Position numbers and translations under genes: made by a program
Part shown: positions 2,172-40,327 of the stretch, piece after piece
Layout of the letters: every line of letters starts with the position of its first letter
How positions within the stretch are numbered: position 1 is the first letter of the stretch
The notes under the pieces: generated by a model
The model's input: only the letters and a program-made list of their open reading frames with translations
What the model was told of the DNA's origin: nothing
Database searches by the model: none
Virus record (IMG/VR): IMGVR_UViG_3300046838_000270
Location: 1-46,290 of that record
Direction: 5' to 3' (one strand)
Origin: a virus
DNA length: 46,290 nt

Positions 2172-3983
2172 TCAGCTCAGAGTAATTTGAGGATCAATGT
2201 AAAGTGTTGTTGATGGCTTGGCGGCTCGTACCCGCACATGGATGTATCCCGCCATGCCGGGCTGCGGCGCGGATAGTGTGGCAGTGAGCTTGAACGGCGA
2301 CCAGCCTGCGCCGCTGCCGCCACCGTTCCAGGTTGAACTATCCGATGCCACCGCCGCATTCGCTGAAAACAAATTAGCCTTGGTCGTGCTGACGATCGTC
2401 CCGACCGGGAACGACGACGAGCCGAGGTACTCGACCTCCATCCAGATGTCGTCGTTGTTGGGTAGCGCGCCAGCATTGATGGTACCGCACACCGTCACGA
2501 CGACATTCGCCGCTGTCCTTGGATTCCAGATCGCGTAGGGCTCGGCCTTGAACGGCCGCAGCCATTGCGAATTAGCCGTGGTGACGATCTTGCGGGATTG
2601 CGCCTGCCCGGTCGGATCGGAAGCGCCGCCGATGCGGGTGATCGAAGTCTCGGTCGTCTCGGTGCCTTCATAGGCATAGCGGGCGGACTTGTAGGCCGTC
2701 GCACTACCGTCAGCGCGTACATATTGAACTACTTGCCCAGTGTTCAATGGGCTCGAAAACGTCGCGGACGCATTCAGCTTGCAGTCTTTCACGATCCAAT
2801 TGCCAGTTGATGTATTATTATTCGCAAAAACAGAAATGACTTGGCTGAGATCGAGCGCCTCAAGCGTGACGTTGCTCATGCCGCTGGTGTTGTTTTGCGC
2901 CATAAGATTCGTTGGCACTGACGAGCCGCTTGCAAGCACCGTCCCGGTGTTCTGCCAATTAAAACCGACGGCACCAAGAATGATGGTTTGCGCGACGTTG
3001 GCAAAACTAACCTGACAGTTGTTCCAGACAATCGTGCCGGAACTGGTCGTATTCAGCACCATTTGTCCGGTGATCGAGGTCGTAGCAAGCTTGAAGATAC
3101 ATGAATCGAAGTAATAAAACGCGCTGCCAGGAAAGAAAGCCAGCAAGTTCGATCCAGTCGATTGCCCAACTCCGGCAAGAAATGTCAGCCCATAGAAATA
3201 AACCGCCCCAGTGTTAGGACTGATGCTAAGGGCCGCGCCCCCAGTCGCGCTCGTCGAGATTGTCGCCGTGGTTCTCAAATCACTAGATGCAGGCGGATAG
3301 CTGCCCGAATGATTGTGACAAATGATCTTGCCGACCGTCGCCTGGGTCAACGCGGGCGCTATAGTGATAGCTGCACTCGACGACTCAGCGTGGTTGTCAC
3401 CGACATAGATCGTGTTGCCAGCGACCCACCAAGTGGTGGCACAAGCATTCGGCAGCCGCGCGTGCGGGGCCTGGCCGCCGGTGAAGTTGCCGACCACTCC
3501 GAGCGAGGTCCAGACCGCCGTGCCGCCGCTCTCAGATGTGGTCACGCCTGCCGTATTGCTGAACGCCGGTTCGGCAGCTCCCATCGTCCCGGCCGTCGTG
3601 CAGATCTGATAGCTCGCGCCAGAATTACGCTGGATGATCGCGCCTAGCGAAGGCGAGCCGATTGCCTTCGCTGCCGTCCAGTTGACAGTATCGGTCAGGT
3701 CGCCGTTAACGGACGACATCCCGGTGACTTCCATCCAAGTCGCAGTATTATCAACAGTCTTCGCCCCTCGGGTGAGCACCCAAGTCGCATCGGTGACGTT
3801 TGCAGTCGTGCCTGCAATGATGCAAACAAACACCCGCTCGGAACCGACTGCAGGAGCCGTAAATTGGCGAACAATCTGACCTGCGGTGACCGCCGCGTTC
3901 TGGGGCCTCTTAGCCACCGCGTAGTGACCGGTGGTTGATTGGTCACCCGCGTTCGCGTACCAGCACTGATCATAGAAGGCCAT
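2172..3983 (-). CDS. Large beta-rich structural protein, putative tail fibre or tailspike
   Basis: 603 aa starting [13 protein letters not shown]. The sequence is rich in Thr, Ser, Asn and Val with repeated short beta-strand-like segments in the middle (about residues 200-450), compatible with a beta-helix or fibre shaft. No catalytic motif of a known tailspike hydrolase was recognised. It lies inside the block of collagen-like appendage genes, 2 bp from its neighbour, so it is most likely part of the same adhesion apparatus. Codon use is more AT-rich around 2750-3200 than in flanking genes, possibly reflecting module exchange. Confidence 0.65.
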
Positions 3984-3984
3984 T

Positions 3985-4581
3985 TCAGAAAATACCTCCC
4001 GCGATGATCACGGTCGTATAAGGGCCGGTCGGTCCAGTTGCTCCTGCCGATCCAGCACCACCAACCGATCCTGTGGGTCCGGTGTTTCCCGTCGCACCTG
4101 CTGATCCTACGCCTCCTGCAGTACCGGCATCTCCCGTTGGTCCGGTATTACCCGTAGCTCCAACCGTCCCAACGCCGCCTGCACCAGTCGGTCCTGTCGC
4201 ACCAGCACTGCCAGCACCACCAACCGATCCTGTGGGTCCGGTCGAGCCTACACCTGCCGGCCCGGTCGGACCTGTCCCTGCCGTCCCCCCTCCACCACCT
4301 GTCGGACCAATCGATCCTGTCGGTCCAGTAAACGCGCCTGCACCAGTCGGACCAGTAAAACCAACTCCCGTCGGTCCGGTCGGACCCAACGTACCCGTAG
4401 CCCCTGTTGGCCCTAACCCTCCCGGTCCGGTCGGACCCGACACACCGGTCGGCCCAGAAGGCCCAGCCGGACCCGTCGTAACTCCAACAACCCACACACC
4501 CCGCGACGTGTAGGTGTAGGTCACGCCGCCATACGTGTAAGTCTGTCCTACCGACGGAGAACTGGGGAAATCGATCGGCAT
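3985..4581 (-). CDS. Collagen-like protein, 198 aa
   Basis: The start is the ATG at 4581 ([18 protein letters not shown]), overlapping the TGA of the preceding gene by one base (TGATG). The first 35 residues form a small Tyr/Thr/Gly-rich domain, and almost all the rest is G-X-T collagen repeat (GPTG, GATG), ending [12 protein letters not shown]. It has no large C-terminal head, unlike the other collagen genes here. The N-terminal part resembles short phage tail-fibre anchor domains. Likely a structural fibre subunit. Confidence 0.75.
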
Positions 4582-5396
4582 CAGACCACCCACCCCGGAA
4601 GCAGCAGCGTCACCGCACCACCACTACCACCTCCACCAGGCCCGGTCGGTCCCGCCAGCGGCGGTGCCACCTGCACCCACTGCGTGGAATTGCCGTCATC
4701 GATCCAGATCGACAGAATACCGGTCGTCAGATCGTACCAGAGATAGCCTGGTGTCGGAGAAGCCGGCGGCGTGCTCGAGCCCGTGTAGCCACCACCACCG
4801 CTGCCACCGCCGCTACCAGCAGCGCCCGTCGGCCCGGTCGCACCCGTATTGGCAGCCGACCCGCCAGGGCCTGCTGGTCCCACCGGTCCTTGGAGACCAG
4901 GTGCTCCAGGAAGGCCCGTAGGCCCAGCAGCTCCAGCAGCGCCTCCAACTCCGGCAAGACCCGTCGGTCCGGTCGCACCCGTGTTGACCGCAGATCCCGG
5001 AACGCCGGACGGCCCGGTCTGACCCACGCGGCCGGTCGGCCCGGTCGCGCCCGTGACAGACGCCGTGCCGGGGACGCCCGTCGGCCCAATCGGTCCAGTC
5101 GGCCCGAGCCCGCTGGCGCCCATGACGCCAGTCGCGCCAGTCGCCCCGACAGACCCGATCGGACCTGTGCTGCCGATCGATCCCGTCGGACCCGTGATCG
5201 CCAACCCGGTCGGCCCCACGGCACCCGTCGGCCCGGTGAACGCCCCGGCGCCCGTCGGTCCTGTGAACCCGGAAGTGCCGGTTGGTCCCGTCGGACCAGT
5301 GCCACCCGTCGGGCCGCCGGCCGGACCAGTGTGGCCACCCACGACCACAACGGGGCGTGTCGACACGATAGCCGGTTCGTTCTTTATAACCGCCAC
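4581..5396 (-). CDS. Collagen-like appendage protein, 271 aa
   Basis: N-terminus [21 protein letters not shown] is shared with the genes at 127 and 1436, followed by about 170 residues of Gly-X-Y repeats. The C-terminal part contains a small aromatic domain ([20 protein letters not shown]) of the kind found at the tips of phage and host collagen-like proteins, then a Gly-rich tail. It is translationally coupled to the next gene by TGATG. Probable trimeric fibre protein. Confidence 0.78.
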
Positions 5397-33956: not shown

Positions 33957-34298
33957 ATGAAACTCACCACCGCAATCGTCGACCGCATCGTTGTCAAAGC
34001 CGAATTTGATCCGGATTCCGAATCCTGGTGGGCCACGGCGGATATCGACGCGCGCCACACGCTGACGACCGGCGCTCCGACATTGGACGAGTTGCTGGAA
34101 CGAATCCCGGCCGTGCTGCGCGATCTTCTGGTCGATGCTTACCCGAACGCGGAAATCCCGTTCAGCATCGTTGTCCACAAACTCCCCAAGGCGAGGCAAG
34201 GCAGGCGAGGTCTGGCTCGGCGAGGCCCGGCTGGGCGCGACCGGGCGGAGCGGGGCAAGGCATGGCAAGACCCGGCAGGCGCGGCGAAACCTGGATAG
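33957..34298 (+). CDS. HicB-like (DUF1902) protein with repeat-derived C-terminus
   Basis: The first 80 residues (MKLTTAIVDRIVVKAEFDPDSESWWATADIDARHTLTTGAPTLDELLERIPAVLRDLLVDAYP...) match the DUF1902/HicB-type fold. Start ATG 33957 behind GGGGAG. The last 35 residues are encoded by the first GGCNN array and read QGRRGLARRGPAGRDRAERG..., so the normal end of the protein is about residue 80 and the array has extended the frame. No hicA-type partner is seen beside it. Confidence 0.65.
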   Translation: MKLTTAIVDRIVVKAEFDPDSESWWATADIDARHTLTTGAPTLDELLERIPAVLRDLLVDAYPNAEIPFSIVVHKLPKARQGRRGLARRGPAGRDRAERGKAWQDPAGAAKPG

Positions 34299-34350
34299 GC
34301 GCGGCGAGACAAGGCAACGCGGGGCCTGGCCGGTCCCGGCCCGGCAGGCA
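34188..34350 (+). repeat. GGCNN pentamer array 1
   Basis: About 160 bp of degenerate GGCNN pentamers, interrupted by GGCAGGC (a 4-base unit next to a 5-base unit) at 34200, 34274 and 34343. These marks are 74 and 69 bp apart, both equal to 4 modulo 5. The array starts inside the HicB-like gene and ends before the ribosome site of the next gene. Confidence 0.85.
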
Positions 34351-34382
34351 AAACACAGATCGTCCATCAAACAGGGAGAGAG

Positions 34383-35246
34383 ATGATTATGGCGAAGAAG
34401 ACAGCAAAGGCGAAGGATCAACAAATCGAAGTGCAAGAAATTGAGATGGTCGAAATCCATTTCTGCGTTCTCGGTACGTCACCATTAATCATGAATAGAT
34501 TCAATCAAAAGGCTTGGCACGAGCTGCTGTTGCCTTCGCAGACGCGAAACCGCGCCGACATGGAGCAAACACTCAAGCACGATCCGGTCGCTGAATTCAG
34601 AGGCGCGGTGTATCGCAACCGCGATCCTGAAGAGCCCTCTCTGATCCATATCCCGAATGGAGCCTTTCATGGCTGCATCGCATCGGCAGCCCTCGATATG
34701 CCAGGCGCGACCAAGGCAAAAATCGAGCGGCTGACTCGCATTACCGATGTGAACATCAATCTCTTCGGTTTGCCGCAGCTCTTCATGTCGATGGTTAGAA
34801 ATTCTGACATGAATAGAACGCCGGACGTTCGCACGCGGCCGATATTCCCAGAATGGTGCTGTAAAGTTTCCGTTAGGTATGTCCGAAAGATACTCTCCGA
34901 GAGAACTGTCTCAAATCTGTTTGGTGCCGCTGGCTCGATCGTAGGCATCGGCGATTGGCGCGGTCAGAAGGGCGGCCCTTACGGCGCCTTTCGTTTGGTT
35001 GATGACAGCAACACCGACTTCAAGCGCATCGTGAAGACGATGGGGCGTGTCGCGCAAGAGAAGGCGTTGCAACATCCGATTTGCGCCGACGAAGACACCG
35101 AAGAATTGTTGCAATGGTTCAATCTTGAGGTCGCTCGGCGCGAACAAGACTTGCCGTCTTCGCTGGCGAAGACGCGGCGCGTGGTTATCGAGAAGGGCGG
35201 CAACGGCAGCGACGAGGCCGAATATGCGGGCGTCGAAGCCAGATAG
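34383..35246 (+). CDS. Unknown phage protein near RecT, 287 aa
   Basis: Begins MIMAKKTAKAKDQQIEVQEIEMVEIHFCVLGTSPLIMNRFNQKAW. A conserved-looking middle includes DVRTRPIFPEWCCKVSVRY and GAAGSIVGIGDWRGQKGGPYGAFRL, a Gly-rich loop. Proteins of this pattern accompany phage recombination genes; the LGTSPLIMNRF start and Gly-rich loop slightly recall RAMP-fold (Cas7-like) proteins, which is only a guess. The start has GGGAGAG 4-5 bases upstream. Function unknown. It lies between two GGCNN arrays. Confidence 0.6.
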   Translation: MIMAKKTAKAKDQQIEVQEIEMVEIHFCVLGTSPLIMNRFNQKAWHELLLPSQTRNRADMEQTLKHDPVAEFRGAVYRNRDPEEPSLIHIPNGAFHGCIASAALDMPGATKAKIERLTRITDVNINLFGLPQLFMSMVRNSDMNRTPDVRTRPIFPEWCCKVSVRYVRKILSERTVSNLFGAAGSIVGIGDWRGQKGGPYGAFRLVDDSNTDFKRIVKTMGRVAQEKALQHPICADEDTEELLQWFNLEVARREQDLPSSLAKTRRVVIEKGGNGSDEAEYAGVEAR

Positions 35247-35608
35247 GCACGGCAGGCGGGGCTCGGCGCGGCCTGGCGTGGCTTGGTTCGGAAGGGCCAG
35301 GCGGGGCATGGCGGGGCAAGCTATGGCGCGGGAGGCAGGCGTGACGTGGCACGGCCAGGTCCGGCGCGGCATGGCTCGGCACGGCTAGGTGAGGCAGGCG
35401 CGGCAGGGTGTGGTGGGGCCATGCCCGGCCCGGCGAGGCGAGACAAGGCAGGGCAGGCGTGGTCGGTCAAGGAAGGGCGAGGCATGGGACGGACAGGCAC
35501 GGCCCGGCGAGGCAGGCATGGTCGGACATGGACAGGCGAGGCCTGCAAGGGCGTGGACAGGCGAGGCAAGGCAACACGGGGCAAGATGAGGCAAGGAAAG
35601 GCAGGCAG
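35247..35608 (+). repeat. GGCNN pentamer array 2
   Basis: About 360 bp of degenerate GGCNN units, from the 287-aa gene to the ATG of the 171-aa gene (35609). GGCAGGC marks at 35251, 35334, 35393, 35452, 35511 and 35600 give spacings 83, 59, 59, 59 and 89; four of the five are 4 modulo 5. The last unit provides the AAGGCAGGCAG ribosome-site region. Long frames here (GQAGHGGA..., RRAPPR...) result from a missing stop-codon pattern and are not genes. Confidence 0.88.
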
Positions 35609-36124
35609 ATGACGTCAATCATGGAAAGGCCAGTCAGCACGCGGGCTGCGGCGATCAGGCAGGCGCTTGAAGCGCTACAGGACAGCCGCGGTCGGCTGAC
35701 GCCGGAACGTGTTGTGGCAGCGGCGCGAAATCCGCGACACGTTCTGCATCGGGAATTCGGATGGAATGACCGTCAGCAAGCAAATTTGCATCGGCTCGAT
35801 CGCGCCCGCGAGTTGATCACTAAATACATCACCGTGACGGTTATTTACCGATCTGAACGAATCAGTGTTCCGTTTTATGTCAAAGACGCGTCCGCGCCGC
35901 CCACAACGCAAGGCTATGTCGCGCTGGTCGGCCCCAGCATGAACCGAGCGAATGCTGAACTAACCATGATCGCAGAATTCGATCGATGCGCGTCCATCAT
36001 CGGCCGCGCAAGAGGAATCGCTGGCGTTCTCAGTTCTCGGTTTCCTGGGTTGGATGCGCAGCTCGAAGGCCTGCTTGATCAGCTCATCGCGATTCGAAGT
36101 GCGATCAGCAGTGAAGCAGCGTGA
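35609..36124 (+). CDS. Hypothetical protein in recombination module, 171 aa
   Basis: The start is ATG 35609 at the end of array 2. MTSIMERPVSTRAAAIRQALEALQDSRGRLTPERVVAAARNPRHVLHREFGWNDRQQANLHRLDRARELITKYITVTVIYRSERISVPFYVKDAS... has an HTH-like N-terminal part (LTPERVVAAARNP..VLHREFGW) followed by a beta-rich half. Similar proteins occur near phage recombinases. Function unknown. Confidence 0.65.
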   Translation: MTSIMERPVSTRAAAIRQALEALQDSRGRLTPERVVAAARNPRHVLHREFGWNDRQQANLHRLDRARELITKYITVTVIYRSERISVPFYVKDASAPPTTQGYVALVGPSMNRANAELTMIAEFDRCASIIGRARGIAGVLSSRFPGLDAQLEGLLDQLIAIRSAISSEAA

Positions 36125-36760
36125 GGCACGGCAGGCGCGGTGAGGCGGGGCATGGCTAGGAGGGCCTGATGAGGCGAGACCTGGTGAGGCACGGCAGGCG
36201 TGGCATGGCCGGATGCGGTGGGGTCGGGCGCGGTAGGGCACGGACCGGTGCATCTGGGCGCGGTGAGGCACGGCAGGCTTGGCAGGGCTGGGCCACGCCA
36301 GGCTCGGCAAGGCAAGGCGTGTCAAGGCACGGCTGGTTTTGGCTCGGCAAGGCAGGCGTGGCGAGGTCGGGTGCGGTGAAGCGAGGCCTGGCATGGCTCG
36401 GCGGGGTAGGGACCGGCCCGGCAGGCGAGGCATGGCTTGGCCAGGCTGGGCGCGGTGAGGCGCGGCTAGGTGTGGCCTGGCCAGGCAGGCGGGGTCCGGT
36501 CGGGTTAGGCCAGGCGGGGCAGGGCAACGCGAACCTTGGTGTGGCCGGGATAGGCATGGCAGGCGCGGCTCGGCGCGTCGGGGCGGGGCACGGCGCGGCA
36601 TGGTGGGGCGTGGCATGGCGCGGCAGGCAAGGCTTGGCTGGACGAGGCGAGGTGTGGTGCGGCGCGGTGGGGCCGAGCGAGGCGAGGCAGGCGTGGCATG
36701 ACGTGGCGTCGCGGGATGAGGCGCAACTTGGTCAGGCGAGGCGAAGAGGTGGGCGAGGTC
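36125..36760 (+). repeat. GGCNN pentamer array 3
   Basis: About 635 bp, the longest array. GGCAGGC marks at 36130, 36193, 36272, 36351, 36420, 36484, 36558, 36622 and 36685 are spaced 63, 79, 79, 69, 64, 74, 64 and 63; six of the eight are 4 modulo 5, as expected for one 4-base unit plus 12-15 pentamers. The plus strand is strongly G-rich and T-poor. It runs from the stop of the 171-aa gene to a hairpin before the exonuclease. Confidence 0.9.
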
Positions 36761-36774
36761 GCAAATGACCTCGC
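36753..36774 (+). promoter_or_regulatory. GCGAGGTC/GACCTCGC hairpin after array 3
   Basis: A perfect 8-bp stem GCGAGGTC-GCAAAT-GACCTCGC at the array boundary, 26 bp before the exonuclease start. No U-tract follows, so it is more likely a processing or translation-control hairpin than a terminator. Confidence 0.5.
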
Positions 36775-36799
36775 TCACTTGAACCAAGAGGTTTGTTAG

Positions 36800-37720
36800 A
36801 TGCCGATCGAACGCATCAAGATCACCGGCCGCGATCAATGGCTCGAGGCACGCAAAAACGACGTGACCGCCAGCGTCGTCGCCAGTCTATTTGGCTGCCA
36901 TCCTTATGTTTCAGCGTTAAAAATCTATCTTGCGCACTCGGGAATTGAATTTGATCAGGCCGACGATCGCGTCTTGCGCCGGGGTCGTTTGATGGAGCCG
37001 TCTGTCGCCTTGGCGGTTTCCGAAGATCGGCCGGACTGGCGCATTGAGAAATGCGATTCCTACTATCGCGACCCCGACTTGCGGCTCGGTGCGACACCGG
37101 ATTTTTTTATTCATGACGATCCGCGCGGCCTCGGCATATTGCAAGCAAAGAGCGCGGCGCCGCACATTTTTCAGCGCGACTGGGAAGGCGGCACCACGGT
37201 GCCGCTCTGGGTGCAACTACAAACTCTGACCGAAGCGATGCTGACCGAGGCCGCATTCGCTGTTGTCGCCGTCCTTGAAATCAATGCCTTCGACATGGCC
37301 CTGAGCATCATCGAGGTGCCGCGCCATCCTGCCGCCGAGCAGCGCATCGTCGAAGCAGTCGCCAGGTTTTGGGATGACGTCGCCAGCCGCCGCGAGCCCA
37401 GTCCTGATTACGGCAAGGATGCCGAATTGCTCAAGGTGATCGCGCCGCACGAGGTTGTCGGCACGACGGTCGACCTGAGCGGCGACAACGAACTGCCCGC
37501 GCTGCTCGAGCAACGGGAGGAGATCATGACGGGGATCAAAAGCTTCGAGACGCGCAAAGACGAGATCGAGACTATGTTGAAATTTAAAATGAGAGATGCC
37601 GAAAGCGTCATCGGCCTGCCCGAATGGGGCATCAGCTGGAAAAGCCAGCATCGCAAAGAGTTTGTCGTGCCGGCCAAAGACGTTCGCACGCTCCGCATTC
37701 ACCACAAAGGACAACGCTGA
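36800..37720 (+). CDS. YqaJ/RecE-type viral exonuclease, 306 aa
   Basis: YqaJ-type motifs: RDQWLEARKNDVTASVVASLFGCHPY at the start, RVLRRGRLMEPSVAL (Glu-containing helix), LRLGATPDFFI (catalytic Asp), GILQAKSAAP (Q-x-K), and WVQLQTLTEAMLT (Gln helix). It digests one strand of linear duplex DNA from 5' ends to give single strands for the annealing protein encoded next. Translationally coupled to RecT by TGATG. The ribosome site is AAGAGG. Confidence 0.88.
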   Translation: MPIERIKITGRDQWLEARKNDVTASVVASLFGCHPYVSALKIYLAHSGIEFDQADDRVLRRGRLMEPSVALAVSEDRPDWRIEKCDSYYRDPDLRLGATPDFFIHDDPRGLGILQAKSAAPHIFQRDWEGGTTVPLWVQLQTLTEAMLTEAAFAVVAVLEINAFDMALSIIEVPRHPAAEQRIVEAVARFWDDVASRREPSPDYGKDAELLKVIAPHEVVGTTVDLSGDNELPALLEQREEIMTGIKSFETRKDEIETMLKFKMRDAESVIGLPEWGISWKSQHRKEFVVPAKDVRTLRIHHKGQR

Positions 37721-39559: not shown

Positions 39560-40327
39560 ATGAAGCGACTACTAGCTACGACCGCCGTCCTGGCCGCCCT
39601 CGCGGTGCCGGCTGCGGCCAGCACCGTCACACTAGGTGGCCAGACCTGGGACACCACCAACTCTGGAAGCCTAAGCCTCGGCAACGTAGTGCCCGCCGGG
39701 AATCAACCGCAGAACGCTCCGTGCGTCATCTGCGGTGCCAACCAACCCCAGCAGCCGGCGAACTTCGGCTACAACGACTACCAGAACGGCGGCAATCTGA
39801 CGGCGGCTACCGCCTTCTCCGACCAAGGCAATGGAGCCAGGAACACGCTGACCAACAACACTGTCGGAGATGGCTACCAGGTCGGTGCTGGAAGCGCCTT
39901 CCTGGCCTACCTACTCGCCAACAACGACACCAGCCTCGGGTTCAGCATCGGCGTGGACGTGAACGACAACAACACGGCGCAGACGTTGAACGCGTTCTAC
40001 TTCCTCGACTACACCACCCACACGGTGCTGGCTTCTTTCACTGGCGGACTCACTGGCAACGTGCCGTCGGTCCACAACGGTACGGGCATCCCGGACTACA
40101 GCATCACCGGGAGCCTGCTCAACCTCAACGATGTCCACCTGGGCGACACGATTGGCTTCGTGGCCATCCTGTCGGGGATGAACGACGGCCCGGACTCGTT
40201 CTTCATCGAGGCGGCACCGGCGGCGGCGCAGACCCCGTTGCCTGGCGCTCTTGGCTTCTTTGCGGCCGGATTGCTTGGTTTGGGTGGCTTGGTGCGAAGC
40301 CTCCGCAAACAGTGTGGCGTTGCGTAG
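39560..40327 (+). CDS. Secreted protein with PEP-CTERM-like (VPLPA-type) C-terminus, 255 aa
   Basis: Signal peptide MKRLLATTAVLAALAVPAAAS (cleavage near residue 21), then a Gly/Asn/Thr-rich beta domain with one CVIC pair, then a C-terminal sorting segment: TPLPGALGFFAAGLLGLGGLVRSLRKQ (Pro-Leu-Pro, hydrophobic helix, basic end). This tripartite tail is that of PEP-CTERM/VPLPA proteins that are anchored and processed by an exosortase. No exosortase gene is in the window. A host-derived surface protein carried by a phage is unusual. Confidence 0.75.
   Translation: MKRLLATTAVLAALAVPAAASTVTLGGQTWDTTNSGSLSLGNVVPAGNQPQNAPCVICGANQPQQPANFGYNDYQNGGNLTAATAFSDQGNGARNTLTNNTVGDGYQVGAGSAFLAYLLANNDTSLGFSIGVDVNDNNTAQTLNAFYFLDYTTHTVLASFTGGLTGNVPSVHNGTGIPDYSITGSLLNLNDVHLGDTIGFVAILSGMNDGPDSFFIEAAPAAAQTPLPGALGFFAAGLLGLGGLVRSLRKQCGVA

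Follow-up and report, generated by a model that had tools for sequence, protein, structure and literature searches.

VIPR is a newly described RNA-guided system and has been proposed as an ancestor of CRISPR. According to the main text of a 2026 preprint (PMC13142463), it combines phage RAMP proteins with guide RNAs built from GGY/NN repeats, of which the NN bases alone pair, one target base being skipped per repeat (the '1-nt skip'), and its guides of ~9-16 GGY/NN pentamers lie in non-coding gaps beside the gene. The system studied experimentally, the type II VIPR of Escherichia phage SUSP1 (KT454805), has four GGT-based guides that stand apart from one another, each with the invariable 3' tail that is a feature of this type. 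The other types named in the main text (staggered, hammerhead-interspersed and single-guide) share the same protein family and repeat code.

In this study, we analyzed a stretch of 46,290 nt from a viral record, here called the window, for which a preliminary description had reported three arrays of GGCNN pentamers and had known of no named element of this kind. We conclude, with a probability of about 0.96, that these arrays are the vrRNA guide arrays of a phage VIPR system, an element that does have a name in the 2026 preprint. The window offers an independent check of the 1-nt skip code on natural targets, in an architecture unlike that of the characterized SUSP1 system, and its tandem arrays reveal the boundary between successive guides.

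Anatomy of the arrays and the genes they flank

GGCNN arrays are confined to three plus-strand stretches and occur nowhere else in the window. Array 1 (34188-34350) holds two complete vrRNA guides between GGCA marks, which, like all guides below, are named by their first position: guide 34204 (34204-34273; 14 NN) and guide 34278 (34278-34342; 13 NN), the dinucleotides of the latter being GC GA CT TA GC GA AA AA GG CT CG CC CC. Array 2 (35246-35608) contains five guides, starting at 35255, 35338, 35397, 35456 (35456-35510) and 35515, and array 3 (36122-36750) about nine, starting at 36134, 36197, 36276, 36355, 36424, 36488, 36562, 36626 (36626-36685) and 36690, the first of which is broken by phase slips. 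Over the three arrays this amounts to ~16 guides of 11-17 units each; the units are mostly GGC, with GGT, GAC, GTC and GGA as variants. GGCAGGC marks lie at 34200, 34274 and 34343 in array 1, at 35251, 35334, 35393, 35452, 35511 and 35600 in array 2, and at 36130, 36193, 36272, 36351, 36420, 36484, 36558, 36622 and 36686 in array 3. Of the 15 spacings between marks of the same array, 13 leave a remainder of 4 on division by 5; the two exceptions, 83 and 63, leave 3 and look as if one base had been lost.

Autocorrelation of the arrays peaks at 5, 10 and 15 nt and again at 59, 64, 69, 74 and 79 nt. The features first noticed in the preliminary description, namely three plus-strand arrays of period 5 with a 4-base GGCA phase mark and spacings that are nearly all 4 modulo 5, are therefore real, and the autocorrelation peaks that it proposed to look for are present. 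Its argument that the arrays are non-coding also holds: a coding reading was rejected given the period of 5 and the frame-shifting marks, and open reading frames within the arrays are only mechanical.

Some 30 bases after the end of array 1 begins the vipr gene (34383-35246, plus strand), which encodes a protein of the RAMP fold (Csm3/Cas7-like; phrog_4652) that is predicted to bind RNA. A profile of this gene family (alignment A1), searched against the PDB, matched 36pp_D, 'SUSP1 Vipr protein', at E=1.8e-16, the next best match being at 0.14, and an AlphaFold2 model of the protein (pLDDT 89.2) matched Csm3/Cas7 RAMPs in Foldseek with E from 3.7e-5. A C-terminal G-rich motif, GVGExRPxxxxGxxGxF, is kept in the alignment. 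Array 2 abuts the vipr stop codon and reaches the start codon of an accessory gene in the vap position (35609-36124, plus strand; phrog_15946, 171 aa); arrays 2 and 3 both begin at the stop codons of the genes they follow. The AlphaFold2 model of the accessory protein (pLDDT 92.7) gave no fold match, the protein has no detectable similarity to SUSP1 vap, and searches of Pfam, PADLOC and NCBIfam found nothing for either the vipr or the accessory gene.

This two-gene module, flanked by arrays, lies directly upstream of YqaJ-RecT, the phage's YqaJ/RecE-like exonuclease being encoded at 36800-37720 (plus strand; Pfam YqaJ, 5.8e-9). The genes adjoining the arrays include the accessory gene, YqaJ and RecT. 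The earlier placement of the arrays in the gaps of the recombination module calls for a correction, in that they are not spread through it and instead flank the two genes upstream of YqaJ-RecT. Elsewhere in the window, 39560-40327 encodes a secreted-looking predicted protein whose match to PEP-CTERM is weak (E=0.88), something unusual in a phage.

Array 3 is closed by a 14-bp hairpin (36747-36780, plus strand; RNA fold z=-4.2), possibly the 3' end of the array transcript. Stems of at least 8 bp follow the last arrays in 37 of 233 cases, compared with 5 of 233 random windows. In other loci, too, strong hairpins close the final arrays, and some are then followed by T-runs like those of intrinsic terminators.

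Distribution of the arrays and the Vipr family

Arrays of this design are common in viral metagenomes and are also found in bacterial genomes. The search for the same arrays in related phages, suggested in the preliminary description, was productive: an 18-base gapped pattern retrieved at least 120 stretches from viral contigs, nearly all with the GGCNN pentamer/GGCA design. A longer pattern retrieved 76 stretches from bacterial genomes of many phyla, although some of these pattern matches (L187, L192) are simple GGGCA-type repeats and not guide arrays. When open reading frames around arrays were collected from the window and the array-selected loci, the vipr family was present in 125 of these and the family of the second gene, a conserved small gene that occupies the vap position, in 112. 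The linkage also holds in the other direction: of 79 loci collected on the basis of the protein alone, 59 had strong arrays on the strand of the gene, compared with none on the opposite strand and 0 of 79 shuffled loci; the remaining 20 Vipr loci fall below the array threshold, and in some of them (e.g. L246) inspection by eye shows degenerate arrays. The recurrence of the design in viral contigs and the lack of any array-like score in shuffled loci exclude a chance origin. In homologous loci the phase and the marks are kept and the NN bases are changed, which is not the picture of unrelated sequence lacking a conserved phase that would have spoken against the preliminary description.

All six named Gordonia and Mycobacterium phages with a vipr gene have arrays. 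Vipr homologues with adjacent arrays are found in Mycobacterium phages Quico, Brocalys and ByChance and Gordonia phages ODay, UmaThurman and Pipp, where the proteins are annotated 'hypothetical protein' (e.g. ODay gp19, UmaThurman gp39). The Vipr closest to that of the window (79% identical) is encoded in L246, whose degenerate arrays lie in the same places and hold different guides; upstream of its vipr gene is a 25/26 match to window guide 34278. Another locus, on a 158-kb phage contig (L036, reverse strand 3202-4775), has six GGCNN arrays with a near-constant ~38-nt spacer (CGGGAGCAGCAGCATCCGGCGYAAAGGGATGGAC), possibly a processing or tail element. A comparison of the window phage's terminase with six VIPR- or array-bearing genomes gave no match.

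Reading rule, guide boundaries and targets

Using 1,582 guide units from all loci, we sought matches outside arrays with 0-4 skipped bases, at a strict threshold at which matches minus twice the mismatches had to reach at least 18. Seven units reached this threshold at skip 1, a count that is not fully independent in that it includes window guides whose target loci came from a skip-1 pattern, and none did so at skips 0, 2, 3 or 4. When the order of the dinucleotides was shuffled, the same threshold was passed by none, except for one unit at skip 4. Skip-1 matches were also present in loci fetched for other reasons: for guide 34204 in contigs retrieved with guide 34278, for guide 35456 in loci retrieved through the protein, and for guides of L068, L167 and L250.

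GGCA precedes 745 of 799 complete unique guides, over which 68% of unit starts are GGC and 15% are GGT. In 13 guides with strong targets, matching across the marks amounted to 27 of 108 bases, equal to chance, on both sides; inside these guides matching is near-complete, the inside being what was selected for. That target matching stops at the GGCA marks indicates that the mark ends the pairing region and that one stretch between marks is one guide. Since these guides lack a separate tail of the kind seen in SUSP1, their processing must differ.

Targets were assigned for four of the 16 window guides. A search seeded with the 9 central dinucleotides of guide 34278 retrieved 13 contigs, in 11 of which the outer four dinucleotides also match, for 26/26 under the 1-nt skip. 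The site lies in the YqaJ-type exonuclease gene (AELYAEKKGLRPP) of other viral contigs, and the base that is skipped falls on the wobble position. Three of these contigs also contain a small gene (ELSEPWARGDKIKA) that guide 34204 fits at 25/28, where shuffled orders reach 21 at most. For guide 35456, the match is to vipr in other VIPR phages, at 21/22 in L248 and at 20/22 in L250, L251, L253 and L254. For guide 36626, a scan seeded with 8 dinucleotides and then extended gave 22/24 in five contigs, at another YqaJ site and in genes of the same type as the window's (KFWDDVAAGREP), compared with 18/24 in the window's own YqaJ gene. The phage's own exonuclease is a homologue of the main guide target that has diverged at both guide sites, and no window guide matches its own genome above shuffled orders. 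Guides of other loci likewise gave no match to the window above shuffled orders. By tblastx, the genome of the window has long stretches in common with several target contigs (e.g. the records from which L219-L228 and L233-L236 derive), which identifies these contigs as relatives with other alleles of the region. Arrays are also present on some of the target contigs themselves. Likely targets are identified in the recombination exonuclease of other phages, close relatives among them, and in the vipr genes of rivals.

When 10 NN of guide 35456 or 9 NN of guide 36424 served as seeds, no exact match was found, and scans from parts of guides 36424, 36488 and 36355 yielded no convincing extended match. 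In 297 genomes of the Bradyrhizobium family there was no target for guide 34278 or guide 36424, and guide 36626 had three matches with 3 mismatches each. Beyond the window, guides in Sphingomonas soli (L201, reverse strand 1980), Mycobacterium szulgai (L167, 3637) and another phage (L250, 5390) match the vipr genes of other systems at 16/16, 22/24 and 18/18, respectively, under the 1-nt skip. A Pseudacidovorax guide (L144, 3868) matches L231/L213 at 25/26 in a gene whose C-terminal region is DnaA-like, and a guide of L077 (8235) matches L020 at 20/22 in a serine-recombinase-like gene; both matches are antisense and both gene calls were made by eye.

Proposed mechanism, alternatives and relation to known systems

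By analogy with the experiments on SUSP1, the arrays of the window would be transcribed and assembled with Vipr into a ribonucleoprotein that binds DNA and silences transcription. Vipr copies would line up on the guide RNA, one per 5-nt register, each holding GGC and presenting the two free bases, and the succession of NN pairs, with one skipped base each, would specify the DNA target. Each GGCA is a one-base register break that closes one guide and opens the next, such that the three arrays hold ~16 guides of 11-17 dinucleotides. These would be aimed at genes of competing phages, among them relatives with another allele of the recombination exonuclease and rivals with vipr genes of their own, whereas the phage's own copies are diverged at the guide sites. 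Of the functions guessed at in the preliminary description, RNA binding is the one that gains support, with the arrays as presumed vrRNA guides.

The other guesses fared poorly. That the arrays are DNA or RNA binding or loading sites for YqaJ/RecT, or a recombination hot spot, is suggested by their position directly upstream of YqaJ-RecT in the window; across loci, however, their constant partners are the Vipr and accessory families, and the NN bases can be read as targets in other phages, something not to be expected of a passive binding site, so that we consider a role in recombination or RecT binding extremely improbable. We give equally little credence to the arrays being a protein sponge or G-quadruplex RNA whose NN bases carry no information. 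The regular spacing of GG on one strand (GGN3GGN3GG) could indeed allow two-layer quadruplexes or multivalent protein sites, yet the order of the NN bases matters, as the matches disappear on shuffling and no skip other than 1 works, and target matching ceases just where the register breaks.

A more serious alternative accepts a VIPR array and holds that the marks end pairing only, with mature RNAs that overlap and a functional RNA that spans parts of two super-units. The main text of PMC13142463 speaks of 'staggered arrays with overlapping vrRNAs', and as there is no tail between super-units here, the next super-unit could act as one. Beyond the marks, on either side, complementarity drops to chance (27/108), an observation that bears on pairing and not on how the RNA is cut, and we regard overlapping RNAs as a real, if minority, prospect. 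We would be just as guarded about a tail-less VIPR design in which the GGCA register break is the sole punctuation between many guides and serves allele-specific exclusion of sibling phages, its guides covering the recombination exonuclease in two allelic forms as well as the vipr genes of rivals, with the carrier's own copies diverged; this we offer tentatively. The 'staggered' type, as presented in the main text of the preprint, may describe the phase-shifted arrays of the window, and the layout may already be covered by it; the punctuation rule and sibling targeting are absent from that main text.

With regard to the reading of the arrays as VIPR guides, the locus has a Vipr RAMP protein, guide pentamers beside its gene and targets matched under the 1-nt skip. 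VIPR systems are phage or prophage encoded and aimed at competitors, and here the arrays lie in a viral record and their targets in other viral contigs, including rival vipr genes. Like class 1 CRISPR effectors (Csm3/Cas7), Vipr has a RAMP fold and a glycine-rich loop and is expected to form a filament on guide RNA; unlike class 1 CRISPR, the locus consists of pentamer arrays only, lacking constant repeats with spacers, and has two genes only, a 5-nt register and a non-contiguous guide code. With respect to the hammerhead-interspersed type of VIPR, a comparison with Rfam gave no family, hammerhead included, at E up to 1. The nearest counterpart is the type II system of SUSP1 (PMC13142463; KT454805), with which it shares a Vipr RAMP protein, guides of GGY/NN pentamers that fill gaps next to the genes, the 1-nt skip and targets in competing phages; the place of the neighbouring vap gene is taken here by the accessory gene. 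Where SUSP1 has four GGT-based guides, each with its tail and without GGCA marks, the window has ~16 GGC-based guides joined head to tail through GGCA, and the invariable 3' tail is absent. Altogether, the window carries a VIPR system that belongs to a known kind, arranged differently from the experimentally studied one of SUSP1 and with likely natural targets identified.
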